32,252 nucleotides of DNA, from contig JAMOQJ010000101.1 of the NCBI GenBank assembly GCA_027064065.1, positions 1-32,252 on the forward strand, written 5' to 3'. The position numbers and the translations under genes are program-made. Positions 20,304-25,931 of the stretch are shown piece by piece; the first letter of the stretch is position 1, and each line of letters starts with the position of its first letter. Under the pieces are notes generated by a model that worked only from the letters and a program-made list of their open reading frames with translations, was not told the origin of the DNA and did no database searches. This stretch comes from Desulfurellales bacterium (GTDB taxonomy: Bacteria; Campylobacterota_A; Desulfurellia; Desulfurellales; Hippeaceae).

Positions 20304-21254
20304 ATGTTGGTATTGGATTTTGAAAAGCCATTATACGAGATAGAAGAAAGAATTAATAACTTGAAAGAGATGGCAAGTAGCAAGGGTATTGATGTTTTAA
20401 AAGAGATAGAAGCTTTGGAAAAGAAGAAAAATGAAATAATAAAATCAGAATTTGAGAATTTGACAGTCGATAAGATAATAAAAATAGCACGCCATCCAAA
20501 TAGACCGTACACGCTTGATTATGTAAATCAGATAGTGCAGGATTTTACGGAAGTTCACGGCGACAGGCTGTTTGCGGATGATAAAGCCATAGTTTGTGGA
20601 TTTGGCTATATCGACAATCAAAAGGTAGCCGTAATTGGTCATCAAAAAGGTAAAAATACAAAGGATAATCTTTACAGAAATTTCGGCATGGCAAATCCTG
20701 AAGGATACAGAAAAACTCAACGCGTAATGAAATTGGCAGAAAAGTTTAATATACCTATAATAACCTTTGTCGATACGCCTGGCGCATATCCCGGTATTGG
20801 AGCTGAAGAGCGTGGACAGTCCGAAGCAATAGCGAGAAATTTATACGTTATGTTTGAAACTGAAGTGCCAATAATCGTAGTCGTAACAGGTGAAGGCGGA
20901 AGCGGCGGAGCGCTTGCTATAGCAAGCGGAGATAGAATAGGTATGCTTGAATTTTCCATCTACGGCGTTATATCTCCTGAAGGGTGTTCATCTATTCTTT
21001 GGAGAGATACAGAGCATTCAGTTGACGCTGCCGAAGCTATGCATGTAACATCTAAGGATTTGTATGAGCTTGGTATTATCGACGAAATAATACAAGAGCC
21101 GCTTGGCGGAGCTCATAGAGATTACAAACAGGCAGCAAATAACGTAAAAGACTTTATTGTAAGGAATCTAAAAGAGTTAAAATCCTTAAATAAGAAAAAA
21201 TTAATTGAAAAGAGATGGAAAAAATGGAGAGAGATGACAACACAATTTCTATAG
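20304..21254 (+). CDS. accA: Acetyl-CoA carboxylase carboxyltransferase subunit alpha
   Basis: AccA with AccD transfers the carboxyl group from carboxybiotin to acetyl-CoA, giving malonyl-CoA for fatty acid synthesis. The 316-residue protein has the N-terminal helix (PLYEIEERINNLKEMASSKG), ARHPNRPYTLDYV, FGMANPEGYRKTQRVM, FVDTPGAYPGIGAEERGQSE and TGEGGSGGALAI for the acyl-CoA and biotin pockets, and GVISPEGCSSILWRD. AccD is not in the window. TAAGGAG lies 7 nt before ATG 20304, and 27 bp separate it from lysC, one of few gaps in this chain. Confidence 0.97.
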   Translation: MLVLDFEKPLYEIEERINNLKEMASSKGIDVLKEIEALEKKKNEIIKSEFENLTVDKIIKIARHPNRPYTLDYVNQIVQDFTEVHGDRLFADDKAIVCGFGYIDNQKVAVIGHQKGKNTKDNLYRNFGMANPEGYRKTQRVMKLAEKFNIPIITFVDTPGAYPGIGAEERGQSEAIARNLYVMFETEVPIIVVVTGEGGSGGALAIASGDRIGMLEFSIYGVISPEGCSSILWRDTEHSVDAAEAMHVTSKDLYELGIIDEIIQEPLGGAHRDYKQAANNVKDFIVRNLKELKSLNKKKLIEKRWKKWREMTTQFL

Positions 21255-22324
21255 AAGAACTTGATGAGTTAAGGAAAAAGATAAGCGATATAGATGTCAA
21301 AATAATAAAACTCCTTGAAGATAGAGCCGAGCTTGTAAAAAAAGTGGGCAGATTTAAAAGAGACAACAAAATACCGTTTTATTCACCTGATAGGGAAACA
21401 AAGGTCTATCAAATGATAGAAGAAAACGCAAGTGGCAGCTATCCGATAAAGAGCCTAAAAACAATCTTTAGAGAGATAATGAGTGCATCAATTAGACTTG
21501 AAGAGCCGCTTACAATTAGCTATTTAGGACCTGAAGCTACATTTACTCATCAAGCGGCTATAGAACGTTTCGGTTTATCTCTTCATTACACGCCGGAAGA
21601 ATCCATAGAAGATGTATTTATGGATGTAGAGCAAGATAGGGCTGATTTCGGTGTTGTGCCAATAGAAAATTCCATAGAGGGTGTAGTTAACTACACCCTT
21701 GATATGTTTGTCAACTCTTCTGTTAAGATTGTTTCTGAGATTATAATAGACATAAAACACAATCTACTATCAAAAGCTGACAGGCTGGAGAATATTAAAT
21801 CAATATATTCTCACCCCAACGCTTTAGGCCAATGTAAGGGTTGGATAAAGAAGCATTTACCCAATGTTCTTTTGTTTGAAACTACATCTACGGCAAAGGC
21901 GGCTAAAATTGCTGAAAAAGACGAAACTGCAGCCGCTATAGCGTCATTGGCTGCAAGCGATATCTACTCTTTGAATATCTTAGCAAGCGGAATTGAAGAC
22001 AAAACGAACAATATAACAAGATTTTTGGTTATAGGAAGAGAGATACCAAAAAAGAGCGGAAGCGATAAAACATCCTTTATGTTTACTATTAAGGATAGGG
22101 TTGGTGCTCTATACCAGATACTTGAGCCGTTTTATAAAAACTCTATAAATTTAACAAGAATAGAGTCCAGGCCATCAAAACAAAAGAATTGGTCGTATAT
22201 TTTTTATGTTGATATAGACGGACATATAGAAGATGAAAAAATACAAAGCTCGCTTAAAGAGATAGAGAAATTTACCGTATTCTTAAAAATTTTAGGCTCA
22301 TACCCTAAAAGTCCGAGAGGTTAA
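21215..22324 (+). CDS. pheA: Bifunctional chorismate mutase/prephenate dehydratase
   Basis: PheA converts chorismate to prephenate and then phenylpyruvate for phenylalanine synthesis. The 369-residue protein has an AroQ chorismate mutase domain (about 10-95, LRKKISDIDVKIIKLLEDRA), a prephenate dehydratase domain (about 100-280; SYLGPEATFTHQAA, VPIENSIEGVVNYTLDMF, TRFLVIGRE) and a C-terminal ACT domain with GALYQIL and ESRPSKQ, the phenylalanine-binding motifs, so feedback inhibition is expected. ATG 21215 and ATG 21224 are both possible starts; neither has a strong ribosome binding site. The gene overlaps accA by 40 bp from the first. It ends 2 bp from a convergent gene. Confidence 0.96.
   Translation: MEKMERDDNTISIEELDELRKKISDIDVKIIKLLEDRAELVKKVGRFKRDNKIPFYSPDRETKVYQMIEENASGSYPIKSLKTIFREIMSASIRLEEPLTISYLGPEATFTHQAAIERFGLSLHYTPEESIEDVFMDVEQDRADFGVVPIENSIEGVVNYTLDMFVNSSVKIVSEIIIDIKHNLLSKADRLENIKSIYSHPNALGQCKGWIKKHLPNVLLFETTSTAKAAKIAEKDETAAAIASLAASDIYSLNILASGIEDKTNNITRFLVIGREIPKKSGSDKTSFMFTIKDRVGALYQILEPFYKNSINLTRIESRPSKQKNWSYIFYVDIDGHIEDEKIQSSLKEIEKFTVFLKILGSYPKSPRG
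21678..21699. repeat. Perfect 22-bp palindrome within pheA
   Basis: An uninterrupted inverted repeat with arm AGGGTGTAGTT on both strands. In RNA it forms a 9-bp stem closed by UUAA. It lies over the codons for the conserved EGVVNYTL segment of the dehydratase domain. It is not followed by a T-run, so it does not look like a terminator. Confidence 0.85.
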
Positions 22325-22326
22325 TT

Positions 22327-23403
22327 TTATTTATTTGAATATTTTTCTATTTTTGATTTAAACCAATCCAAATCGTTTTTATTTATCGTTATTCTTTTAA
22401 TTTCATACAAAGAATCTCCATATGAATTTGTTCCTTCTTTTGTTGTAAATATATATTCAAACCCAACTTCTTTGGCTATCTTTAATGATGTATTGTTGTA
22501 TGCCCCCCAGGGCCAAGCGAAGGCTTTACAAATCTTTTTTGTTTCCCAACCAATTTCTCCTTTGGAAACCTCTAATTCCTTTTTTATTCTTTTTTCTAAC
22601 ATTTCATCCGTTTCCCATTCGCCTATTGTTTCTAAATTTTTTTCTTGTTTATATTTTTCAACTAATGCGTACAGTTCTTTTTCCCAATTCGGTTTTTCGA
22701 AAAATTTAAGGTAGCCGTTGTCTACAACATATTGAGCCAACATATCTCTTAAATCCTGATAAGCAGTAAACTCTTTTGATGCAAATTCCGGTTTTCTTTC
22801 AAAATCCGGTGTACCCAAGCGCTCATCGCCTCTTACCATGCTCCAAGCCGTCATAATTTGCTTAGGACTGTTGAATCCTATTATTTTATCTGAGCCATAT
22901 ACTTTTCTATGAAATTTGCTGTTTGGCTCAATATCTATTATACCACTTTTTTCCATTTCCCGCACTTCTCTCCAACACAGTCTTCTTTCAAGCTTCTTTT
23001 TTATGCCGTTTTCTGTGATAAAATTAGAATTACAGTTGGGCAATCTTTCTCTTTCTATTTTTCCATTATAATAATCGTCTAAGTTTAGACCTAAAAACTC
23101 ATCTTCTTCTACATTCCACGAAACTATAAACGATATTGCATTGAATCCATATTTTTTTAATAAAGGGTAGGCGTAGACCCAAGTGTCTAAATATCCACCA
23201 TCAAGCGTAATAACAATAGCTTTATCAACATTCTTTTTTCCTGTTTGCATAAATTCACCAAGCTCTTCCTTTGTGATTGTTTTATACCCTTTTTCTTTTA
23301 AATATTGCAGCTGCTGTTCAAATGCTTCTGGGGTTATAGAAAATTCGCTATTATCGTAATTAATGTGATAGTAGAGTAGAACTGGTACACTATTATTGCT
23401 CAT
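22327..23403 (-). CDS. Polysaccharide deacetylase-fold protein with altered metal site
   Basis: A 358-residue member of carbohydrate esterase family 4 (NodB fold). The start is ATG 23403, preceded by AAAGGAG; an upstream ATG at 23433 lies before this site. The fold is shown by VLLYYHI, ITLDGGYLDTWVYAYPLLKKYGF, CWREVREMEKSGIIDIEPN and FAWPWGAYNNTSLKIAKEVGF. In active enzymes the first motif is TFDDG and the second is H-[ST]-x-x-H. Here the base Asp68 is kept, but the metal-binding Asp is Gly69 and the first metal His is Asn161, leaving only His165. A long insertion (about 185-285) sits between motifs. No signal peptide is visible, so it may act in the cytoplasm. It overlaps the glycosyltransferase gene by 11 bp. 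Confidence 0.8.
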   Translation of the reverse strand: MSNNSVPVLLYYHINYDNSEFSITPEAFEQQLQYLKEKGYKTITKEELGEFMQTGKKNVDKAIVITLDGGYLDTWVYAYPLLKKYGFNAISFIVSWNVEEDEFLGLNLDDYYNGKIERERLPNCNSNFITENGIKKKLERRLCWREVREMEKSGIIDIEPNSKFHRKVYGSDKIIGFNSPKQIMTAWSMVRGDERLGTPDFERKPEFASKEFTAYQDLRDMLAQYVVDNGYLKFFEKPNWEKELYALVEKYKQEKNLETIGEWETDEMLEKRIKKELEVSKGEIGWETKKICKAFAWPWGAYNNTSLKIAKEVGFEYIFTTKEGTNSYGDSLYEIKRITINKNDLDWFKSKIEKYSNK

Positions 23404-24427
23404 CTTTTTCTCCTTTAATTTGAAGTAATTCATAAACTGCCCTTAATACGATGTTGGGCTTTATGTCCATCATACACTTAAAATGCCCCTTATGGCAAGA
23501 TATATTTCCATTTTTACTACACGGTCTACAATCCAAGTTTTCTATTTCTATTATTTTATGTTTTGTGCTAAGTGGATAAAACCCAAAAGACGGTAGGGTT
23601 GGTCCATAGATATCTATCGTCGGTGTATTATATGCACTTGCTATCTGAACGTAGATAGAGTCGTTGCTTATTAGTAAATTTATTTTTGATATTAAATAAA
23701 ACAGATCACCAGTCTCTGTTCGTCCGGCTAAGTTGATTATTTTTTCATTATTCCCTTTGATAAAATTTGTTATTTGAGTATCTTTGTGATTGCCCATAAG
23801 GACAACATAATACCCTTTTCTTGTTAGAGTGTTAGCGACTTTTTTATAGTATTCTTTAGGCCATCTTTTTGTGGGCCAAACAGAAGCTGGAGCTATGCCT
23901 ATTATCTTATCATCTTCTTTGATGCTGTATGCTTCAAAGATGCCTTCTATTAGTTTTTTGCTGTCATCGGGATAGTATAGGTGTATCTTTCTGATTATTT
24001 GAAAATTTAGTGGTTTAGCCAGCTGTAAATTTTTATCCATTTCATGGGATAGTTCTTTTTTGCTTACCGTATCGGTATAAACAAAGTTTAGATTTGATTC
24101 CTTAAATCCAATCTTTCTTTTTGCTTTTGAAAACATAGATATGATAGATGTTCTTATGCTGCAGTGAGCCGATATCAATATATCAAATCCAAATCCTCTT
24201 ATTATTTTCAATATTCTCAACAATCCAGATATTCCGCTGTCCTTTCCATGTTTGTCATATTGTATGATATGGTCAATATTTGGGTTTAGTGTAAATATAT
24301 TTTTTGTATGCGGAGCAATAAGTAATACGATAAATGAATCTTTATCGTTGTATTTGATTGTCTCTATCAAGGGTTCTATTAGTATTGCGCTATCCGAGAA
24401 AGCCGTTTGAATAATTAAGTAACGCAC
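23393..24427 (-). CDS. Glycosyltransferase family 9 (heptosyltransferase-like)
   Basis: A 344-residue GT-B enzyme of the ADP-heptose:LPS heptosyltransferase family, expected to add a heptose or related sugar to LPS core or another surface glycan on the cytoplasmic side. It has the N-terminal MRYLIIQTAFSDSAIL (Asp12 near the usual GD base), GIAPASVWPTKRWPKEYY starting the second domain, and NDSIYVQIASAYNTPTIDIY as the donor-binding motif. The C-terminal cysteine set CRPC...C....C is common in GT9. The start is GTG 24427 with no Shine-Dalgarno but a TATTAT box 7 nt before it. It is co-transcribed with the deacetylase-fold gene. The exact acceptor cannot be told. Confidence 0.86.
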   Translation of the reverse strand: MRYLIIQTAFSDSAILIEPLIETIKYNDKDSFIVLLIAPHTKNIFTLNPNIDHIIQYDKHGKDSGISGLLRILKIIRGFGFDILISAHCSIRTSIISMFSKAKRKIGFKESNLNFVYTDTVSKKELSHEMDKNLQLAKPLNFQIIRKIHLYYPDDSKKLIEGIFEAYSIKEDDKIIGIAPASVWPTKRWPKEYYKKVANTLTRKGYYVVLMGNHKDTQITNFIKGNNEKIINLAGRTETGDLFYLISKINLLISNDSIYVQIASAYNTPTIDIYGPTLPSFGFYPLSTKHKIIEIENLDCRPCSKNGNISCHKGHFKCMMDIKPNIVLRAVYELLQIKGEKDEQ

Positions 24428-24518: not shown

Positions 24519-25931
24519 TTAAATATCCCAATAAAGTTGAAATTCTGCAGGGTTTGGTATGGAGTTTATGTATTTAATTTCGTTTTCTCTTTTGTAATCT
24601 ATCCAAGCTTTAATTATATCTTCTGTAAATACATCGCCTCTTAACAAGAATTCATAATCGTTTTCCAAAGCTTTTAATGCTTCTTCAAGGCTGCTTGGAG
24701 CTTTTTCAATCTTTGCGAGTTCTTCGGGTGGTAAATCGTAGATGTTTTTATCCATAGGCTCACCCGGATCTATCTTGTTTATTATTCCGTCAAGACCTGC
24801 CATTAACATTGCCGGGAATGCTAAGTATGGATTTGCTGTCGGGTCTGGGAATCTTACCTCTATTCTTTTTGCTTTTGGTGACGGTGAATACATAGGTATT
24901 CTTATTGCGGCGCTTCTATTGCTTGAAGAGTAAGCTAAATTTATTGGTGCTTCAAATCCCGGAATGAGTCTTTTATATGAGTTAACCGTAGGATTTGCAA
25001 ATGCTGCTAAAGCCTTTCCGTGCTTTATGATGCCGCCGATGTAGTAAAGACCGAGTTCGCTCAATCCTGCATATCCGTTTCCGGCGAATAACGGTTTTCC
25101 GTCTTTCCATAAACTTTGATGTGTGTGCATACCTGTTCCGTTGTCGCCCGATAACGGCTTGGGCATAAATGTTACAGTTTTTCCATACATTAAGGCAACA
25201 TTTTTAATGATGTATTTATACTTTAGTACATTATCAGCTTCAACGGTTAGTGGGGCAAATTTTATATCGATTTCGGCTTGACCTGCTGTTGCAACTTCGT
25301 GGTGTTGGGCTTCGACTTCTATATTTGCTCTTTCTAATTCCAATACCATTTCTGTTCTTAGGTCTTGCAAGCTGTCTGTTGGTGGAACAGGGAAGTAGCC
25401 TTCTTTGTATCTTATCTTATGTCCCAAGTTAGGCTCTTCTTCTTTTGCTGTATTCCAGATTCCTTCCATTGAATCTACTTTGTAGAATGCCGTATTGGGA
25501 GCAACTTCGTATCTTACGTCGTCAAAAATAAAGAATTCAAGCTCAGGTCCAAAATATGCCGTATCGGCAATGCCTGTGGATTTTAAATATTCTTCAGCCT
25601 TTTTTGCCACGCTTCTTGGGTGTCTTTGATAACTTTCTTTTGTTACAGGGTCAACTACATCACAAATTATGTTTAGAGTTCTTTCTTCAGTGAATGGGTC
25701 CATGAATGCTGTTGAAGCATCTGGAATAACCAACATGTCGCTTTCATCTATCGATTTCCAACCTCTAATAGATGAACCATCGAATCCTAAGCCATCTTCA
25801 AAGATGTCTTCTTCAAATACATGAGCCGGAACGCTGAAGTGTTGCCACGTTCCTATTAGGTCTACAAACCTAATGTCTACGATTTTAATGTCTTCTTCTT
25901 CAATTTTTTTAAGGATATCTTTTGGTGTCAT
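24519..25931 (-). CDS. glnA: Glutamine synthetase type I
   Basis: GlnA makes glutamine from glutamate, ammonia and ATP as a cytoplasmic dodecamer. The 470-residue protein matches GSI (469 in E. coli) with [57 protein letters not shown] and [20 protein letters not shown]. Tyr398 in NIYDLPPEE corresponds to the adenylylated Tyr397 of E. coli, so GlnE-type control is possible (GSI-beta). GGGAGGT at 25938-25944 lies 6 nt before ATG 25931. A sigma54-type element sits immediately upstream, the divergent gene encodes a sigma54 activator, and a hairpin follows the gene. Confidence 0.97.

Follow-up and report, generated by a model that had tools for sequence, protein, structure and literature searches.

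A NodB-Fold Deacetylase Relative Without Three Catalytic Residues Is Probably Maintained as a Pseudoenzyme in a Lipopolysaccharide-Core Operon of Desulfurellales

Gene Arrangement and Fold Assignment

The window, i.e., the whole stretch of 32,252 nucleotides that was analyzed, is part of a 1.53 Mb draft genome in 129 contigs (G000), which belongs to a phylum-level group of 25 genomes. The named relatives in this group are MAGs labelled Desulfurellales or Desulfurellaceae. The gene under study encodes a CE4/NodB2-like protein of 358 amino acids at 22327..23403; these coordinates agreed with the original prediction, and the strand was corrected to minus. The start was set at the ATG at 23403, which is preceded by GGAG, and all residues were numbered from this codon. 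A longer start at 23433, given by the ORF finder, was rejected because the 10 additional amino acids were absent from the closest orthologues.

The genes on both sides were assigned. GT9-1, a heptosyltransferase-like glycosyltransferase (PF01075, 118 bits), lies at 23393..24427 on the minus strand, and its end overlaps the start of the pseudo-deacetylase by 11 bases (23393-23403). This overlap bore out the predicted coupling to a GT9 gene. Upstream of GT9-1 is glnA (24519..25931, minus strand), a syntenic anchor that holds the same place in G001 and G008. On the other side, a junction of 2 bases (22325..22326) separates the pseudo-deacetylase from the convergent pheA (21215..22324, plus strand), which encodes chorismate mutase/prephenate dehydratase and served as another syntenic anchor. 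A GT4 gene is found at this junction in G006, G003, and G008. Elsewhere in the window's genome, a GT4 glycosyltransferase frame with one in-frame TAG was noted (L099, G000:C59:9185-10171).

The protein belongs to the NodB/CE4 fold, with 50.8 bits against Pfam PF01522 (Polysacc_deac_1; cut-off 23.1). PgaB was the nearest curated family, and the TIGR03938 score of 110.5 bits was far under the cut-off of 321.9, which places the protein outside that family. Compared with its Pfam and PDB relatives, the protein does carry the roughly 100 additional residues noted earlier, divided over two stretches, but this is nothing special to the window, because the same stretches occur in intact orthologues and paralogues of 340-370 amino acids. 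The N-terminus, MSNNSVPVLLYYHINY, was judged by reading the sequence to be without a signal peptide, which would place the protein in the cytoplasm. The earlier proposal that it works on a cytoplasmic sugar intermediate with the coupled GT9 enzyme was retained, and this intermediate is probably a glycolipid.

Loss of Catalytic Residues

Sixteen columns were invariant across 28 intact CE4 proteins, and the window protein departed from them at exactly three, namely, 12, 69, and 161. Codons 68-70 (23194..23202, minus strand) encode Asp-Gly-Gly in place of the Asp-Asp-Gly of intact orthologues; the catalytic base is kept and the metal-binding Asp is lost. Codons 161-165 (22909..22923, minus strand) encode NSKFH, where most intact orthologues have HSKxH; the first metal-binding His is lost and the second is kept. 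The motifs LDGG (D68, G69) and NSKFH (N161, H165) were exactly as previously read. Both replacements of metal ligands, Asp69 to Gly and His161 to Asn, were real; H165 is the sole ligand left, and the Asp-His-His metal triad of CE4 is broken in the window protein. Asp68 (catalytic base), His165, Pro298 of motif 3, and Arg337, which holds the base, were all retained.

A third catalytic loss had been missed. Codon 12 (23368..23370, minus strand, computed from the ATG) is TAT and encodes Tyr, whereas 18 intact orthologues have His at this catalytic-acid position, i.e., the general-acid His of the PgaB/BA0330-type NodB fold. In a profile of 28 intact relatives, this column aligned with the N-terminal 'YH' His of the PgaB/IcaB-like PDB chains 6dq3, 4u10, 3vus, 4f9d, and 4wcj, and position 12 also aligned with approximately residue 150 of 4hd5/4v33. 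His150 is given as the catalytic acid of BA0330 in the accessible part of PMC4505593, and the N-terminal location of the catalytic-acid His in NodB2 (the PgaB/BA0330 class) is described in the portions available of PMC10967932 and PMC4505593. This His (MT5; N-terminal in NodB2) was found in 28 of 28 intact rows and in the aligned PDB chains, and it is missing from the window protein. A phmmer local alignment to 4wcj that paired H13 with the conserved His was rejected, as the profile and all orthologues put the His at 12 with identical flanks. AlphaFold models of the window protein and the intact G006 orthologue, built from six sequences each, had mean pLDDT values of 48 and 53. Residues could not be located in models of this quality; hence, the catalytic positions rest on the sequence and profile alignment to the PDB chains.

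According to the available text of PMC11713874, CE4 proteins without the MT5 His are inactive even with an intact triad. Judged from its residues, the window protein would be expected to lack deacetylase activity. The original prediction had offered a non-catalytic protein or an enzyme with another metal geometry. The former was favored; the latter was disfavored, since the window protein is missing the Asp, the general-acid His, and one of the metal-binding His residues, unlike the dyad enzymes BoPDA and CtAxeA.

Orthologues and Independent Losses Within the Phylum

A family member was present in all 25 genomes. The G011 orthologue was truncated where its contig stops and showed the two His residues of motif 2; it was kept outside the 24 full-length members and the tree. 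H12, D68, D69, H161, and H165 were all intact in 18 of these 24 members, which indicates that the loss in the window lineage was secondary. Orthologues with an intact triad, which the original prediction had counted as evidence against itself, were thus found; they show that the loss was secondary, and the observation on the window protein stands. The pattern of Gly, Asn, and His did not define a broad subfamily, as it was carried by two of the 24 members, both in one genus.

These two members are the window genome and its congener G001 (genus g1), which had the same three substitutions, H12Y, D69G, and H161N. The codons differed at Tyr12 (TAT and TAC) and Gly69 (GGT and GGC), and Asn161 was AAC in both. 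The draft state of the window genome raises the question of whether the unusual residues stem from errors in sequencing or assembly, and the D69G of G003 does rest on one draft genome. However, a triple change common to two genomes with different codons at two of three sites and 75% identity elsewhere is not an assembly error; this explanation was refuted for the window and deserves almost no credence overall. In G003 (L039:5001-6092), D69G occurred alone with the Gly codon GGC, and the genus-mates G006 and G008 (g3) were intact. G003 is possibly a half-way form, or it may be a sequencing or strain variant. In family f4 (G020, G022, and G024), position 12, Asp68, both metal-binding His residues, and Arg337 were all changed, and the Asp69 column held Asp in two genomes and Ser in one.

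The tree was built from 49 rows with the catalytic columns removed, and L058 (a G016 paralogue with a masked stretch) was omitted. The window protein clustered with that of G001 at 100/99, as sister to g3. Family f4 was at the base of the family with a branch length of 1.55, and the whole family was supported at 100/97. The tree and the residue pattern together indicate that the triple loss occurred once in the window genus, that D69G arose again in G003, and that the loss in f4 was independent.

The C-terminus of the family carries a conserved basic tail, SKAYGAVYRKI, which is missing in g1 and g3, separately from the catalytic losses. Loss of a C-terminal membrane helix was considered as the cause of inactivity and was rejected: the tail is missing in G006 and G008 (g3), yet both are intact, so that tail loss does not track inactivity. 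The hydrophobic moment of the short tail of the window protein was no lower than that of long tails.

A CE4 protein without metal ligands could in principle perform other chemistry. The window protein might still be an enzyme, i.e., a metal-independent hydrolase or lyase that uses Asp68, Arg337, His165, and perhaps Tyr12 or Asn161, or one with other metal ligands. In favor of this, the protein keeps its catalytic base, the Arg, the motif-3 Pro, and a single His, and Asp69 changed to Gly twice (in the window genus and in G003). There is also a precedent in 3CL6, a NodB-like protein that lacks both the Asp pair and the second His, which the accessible portion of PMC10967932 calls a non-metal-dependent enzyme. 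On the other hand, three residues of the CE4 mechanism are gone, the general acid included, and the G000/G001 alignment showed no invariant polar residue as a replacement. Moreover, f4 lost the base and the Arg too. Altered chemistry has a small probability.

An inactive subunit of an active CE4 paralogue, rather than of a glycosyltransferase, was also considered, as two intact CE4 paralogues are encoded in the same genome (L001 and L002; the C47 and C50 proteins). These paralogues were distant (29-34% identity over approximately 100 residues) and unlinked, and this search recovered only a single one of them in G001. Such a partnership is quite improbable. A second glycan cluster in the window's genome (L097, G000:C47:8723-13656) contains an intact CE4 gene, two GT4-like genes, one GT9 gene, and a match to PF07388 (polysialyltransferase family).

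Operon Structure and the GT9-2 Partner

Synteny was mapped for 22 loci, with G014 and G015 outside the mapping. The order GT9-1, GT9-2, deacetylase was found in 11 of these loci, and that of the window genus was GT9-1, deacetylase, pheA. The order in G008 was NtrC-like, glnA, GT9-1, GT9-2, deacetylase, GT4 gene, pheA, accA, lysC, ftsK. The window is collinear with this order except for GT9-2 and the GT4 gene, which are missing from its version. In seven mapped g5 loci (two shortened by contig ends), no GT9 gene adjoined the deacetylase, and GT9-1 and GT9-2 were located elsewhere in the genome. Outside the phylum, an intact deacetylase relative followed by three GT9 genes was observed in G046 (L073, 7536-13153), which suggests that the GT9-deacetylase association is wider.

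A genome-wide search (at least 40% identity, E 1e-66 or better) identified a GT9-2 orthologue in 20 of the 25 genomes. GT9-2 was absent from G000, G001, G020, G022, and G024, in which the best other GT9 had an E of 1e-22 to 1e-35. These five genomes are exactly the five with multi-residue catalytic loss. GT9-1 was present in 22 genomes and absent from f4. The tie between the loss of GT9-2 and the loss of catalysis is suggestive, with two independent co-losses behind it. G003 has D69G yet keeps GT9-2, and thus the first step needs no GT9-2 loss. The degenerate f4 relatives (L065:6795-7787, L066:7135-8127, and L067:3788-4780) are in the order LpxB-LpxK-CE4like-UvrB. LpxK and UvrB flank the CE4-like gene with ends that overlap, and LpxB comes before them; the G020 contig stops short of LpxK.

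Selection on the Gene

For the G000-G001 pair, dN was 0.180 and pS was 0.75 (saturated), and neither gene had a stop or frameshift. As dS was saturated, no dN/dS figure was given for this pair, and dN, pS, and a comparison with LysC, AccA, and PheA were used instead. The ratio of CE4 dN to that of the three housekeeping proteins was 2.21 (95% 1.69-2.86) for G000-G001 and 1.74 (1.32-2.30) for the intact pair G006-G008. The first value is 1.26 times the second (0.87-1.84), which is no significant relaxation of selection. Neutral lineages simulated to a total divergence of 0.5 had approximately 10 stops or more on average and at most 34% identity.

The 18 intact orthologues share 108 invariant positions, of which the window protein keeps 103 and that of G001 keeps 102. 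The changes were H12Y, E38K, D69G, H161N, and W341N in the former and H12Y, D69G, H161N, V248I, W341N, and D344G in the latter. Each intact orthologue, when held out against the rest, had 0 to 5 changes, and G003 had one, D69G. Catalytic positions account for three of the four changes common to the window and G001 (nominal hypergeometric P 3.8e-4 for at least three on six catalytic positions, which were named after the changes had been seen). The f4 CE4-like gene had an omega of 0.10-0.16, compared with 0.04-0.05 for UvrB, 0.18 for LpxK, and 0.12 for LpxB.

The gene might be a decaying leftover, on its way out after a change in the pathway made catalysis unnecessary. The pathway neighbors GT9-2 and GT4 are gone, the basic C-terminal tail is lost as well in g1 and g3, and the rate is slightly, though not significantly, above that of the intact pair. 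However, both congeners kept open frames despite saturated synonymous divergence, with low dN and nearly all invariant positions retained, whereas neutral lineages would already have accumulated stops. The f4 gene persists as well. Decay is rather improbable as an overall account, and the window gene itself is not decaying but is kept under strong purifying selection. Catalytic residues are lost and the rest of the protein is conserved by selection, as in a pseudoenzyme, which points to a second, non-catalytic job.

Proposed Origin and Role

The window protein is probably a WabN-like LPS-core deacetylase that became a maintained pseudoenzyme after the loss of its partner glycosyltransferase and now acts as a non-catalytic partner in core assembly. 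Working LPS-core deacetylases are known (WabN). The most parsimonious view is that this was the function of the ancestral gene and that the sugar on which it acted disappeared from the window genus; selection would then preserve the fold and most of the pocket residues, minus the chemistry. Encoded in an operon of GT9-1, GT9-2, deacetylase, and GT4, the ancestor would have been an active NodB2-type (PgaB/WabN-like) deacetylase, and its substrate would have been an N-acetylated sugar on the LPS core as this grew at the cytoplasmic face. GT9-2 and the GT4 gene would then have been lost from the operon in the window genus. With the substrate gone, the deacetylase could have lost the general acid His12, the metal-binding Asp69, and the metal-binding His161. 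The retained protein most likely serves as a scaffold or a regulatory subunit by binding GT9-1, the nascent core glycolipid, or both. We infer a role at GT9-1 because the genes are coupled, the pseudo-deacetylase being translated from the end of GT9-1. The protein probably serves a non-enzymatic role in the building of the outer-membrane lipopolysaccharide.

A broader reading was considered, which is possible but carries considerable doubt. An LPS-core deacetylase may have been converted to a pseudoenzyme at least twice in one phylum, each time without GT9-2, to become a subunit or regulator that has no catalytic activity but is obligatory for core assembly in the window genus or for lipid A assembly in f4 (the LpxB-LpxK operon). 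G003 would be a further case at its beginning.

The phylum offers a bracketed case with intact sisters, a possible half-way form in G003, an end state in two congeners, and an independent full loss in f4, together with a likely cause in the loss of a partner glycosyltransferase. It opens a clear test of whether the deacetylase protein is needed for LPS-core assembly even without its chemistry. It also calls for caution, as an annotation by fold only would name the window protein a deacetylase. Inactive NodB proteins are already known, and those described in the available parts of PMC10967932 and PMC4505593 are non-LPS proteins. No report of an inactive NodB protein in an LPS operon was found in the literature search.

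Comparison With Known Systems

The window locus encodes its deacetylase relative with LPS-core glycosyltransferases, as is the case for WabN. We take waaQ to be a GT9-type (heptosyltransferase-type) gene. In Edwardsiella, wabN is tabulated beside waaQ in the accessible portion of PMC5485987. The available text of PMC8552709 describes WabN as the deacetylase of LPS GlcNAc in Klebsiella, on which the glucosamine of the outer core depends. In Acinetobacter baumannii, core GlcN requires a predicted deacetylase and a glycosyltransferase, according to PMC10936431. The likeness to WabN is one of gene context and description, a deacetylase gene inside an LPS-core glycosyltransferase cluster. In these sources WabN is a working deacetylase, whereas the window protein lacks three catalytic residues.

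The best solved relatives by profile were the PgaB/IcaB NodB2 de-N-acetylases (4f9d, 3vus, 4u10, 5bu6, 4wcj, and 6dq3). Enzymes of this type act outside the cytoplasm. They have the general-acid His at the N-terminus and an Arg on the last strand, and the window family matches this layout. Unlike the window protein, they keep the triad. BoPDA and CtAxeA also have an incomplete triad; in the accessible text of PMC11713874, they use a dyad of Asp and one His, and the catalytic His is kept. The window protein resembles them, as described there, in its incomplete metal triad but differs in that the acid His is missing together with the Asp and one metal-binding His.

Inactive CE4 proteins on record, in the available portions of PMC4505593 and PMC10967932, include BA0330/BA0331, EcCDA (2VYO), and Ba0150 (4M1B). 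As far as these portions describe them, they resemble the window protein in retaining the NodB fold for a non-enzymatic function. BA0330/BA0331 had no activity, and base-mutated versions complemented fully (PMC4505593, in the part available). By this description their metal site is preserved and they function in the cell wall, whereas the window protein has lost the metal site and the acid and is encoded in an LPS operon. By analogy with BA0330/BA0331, a non-catalytic role for the NodB fold is credible in the window protein.
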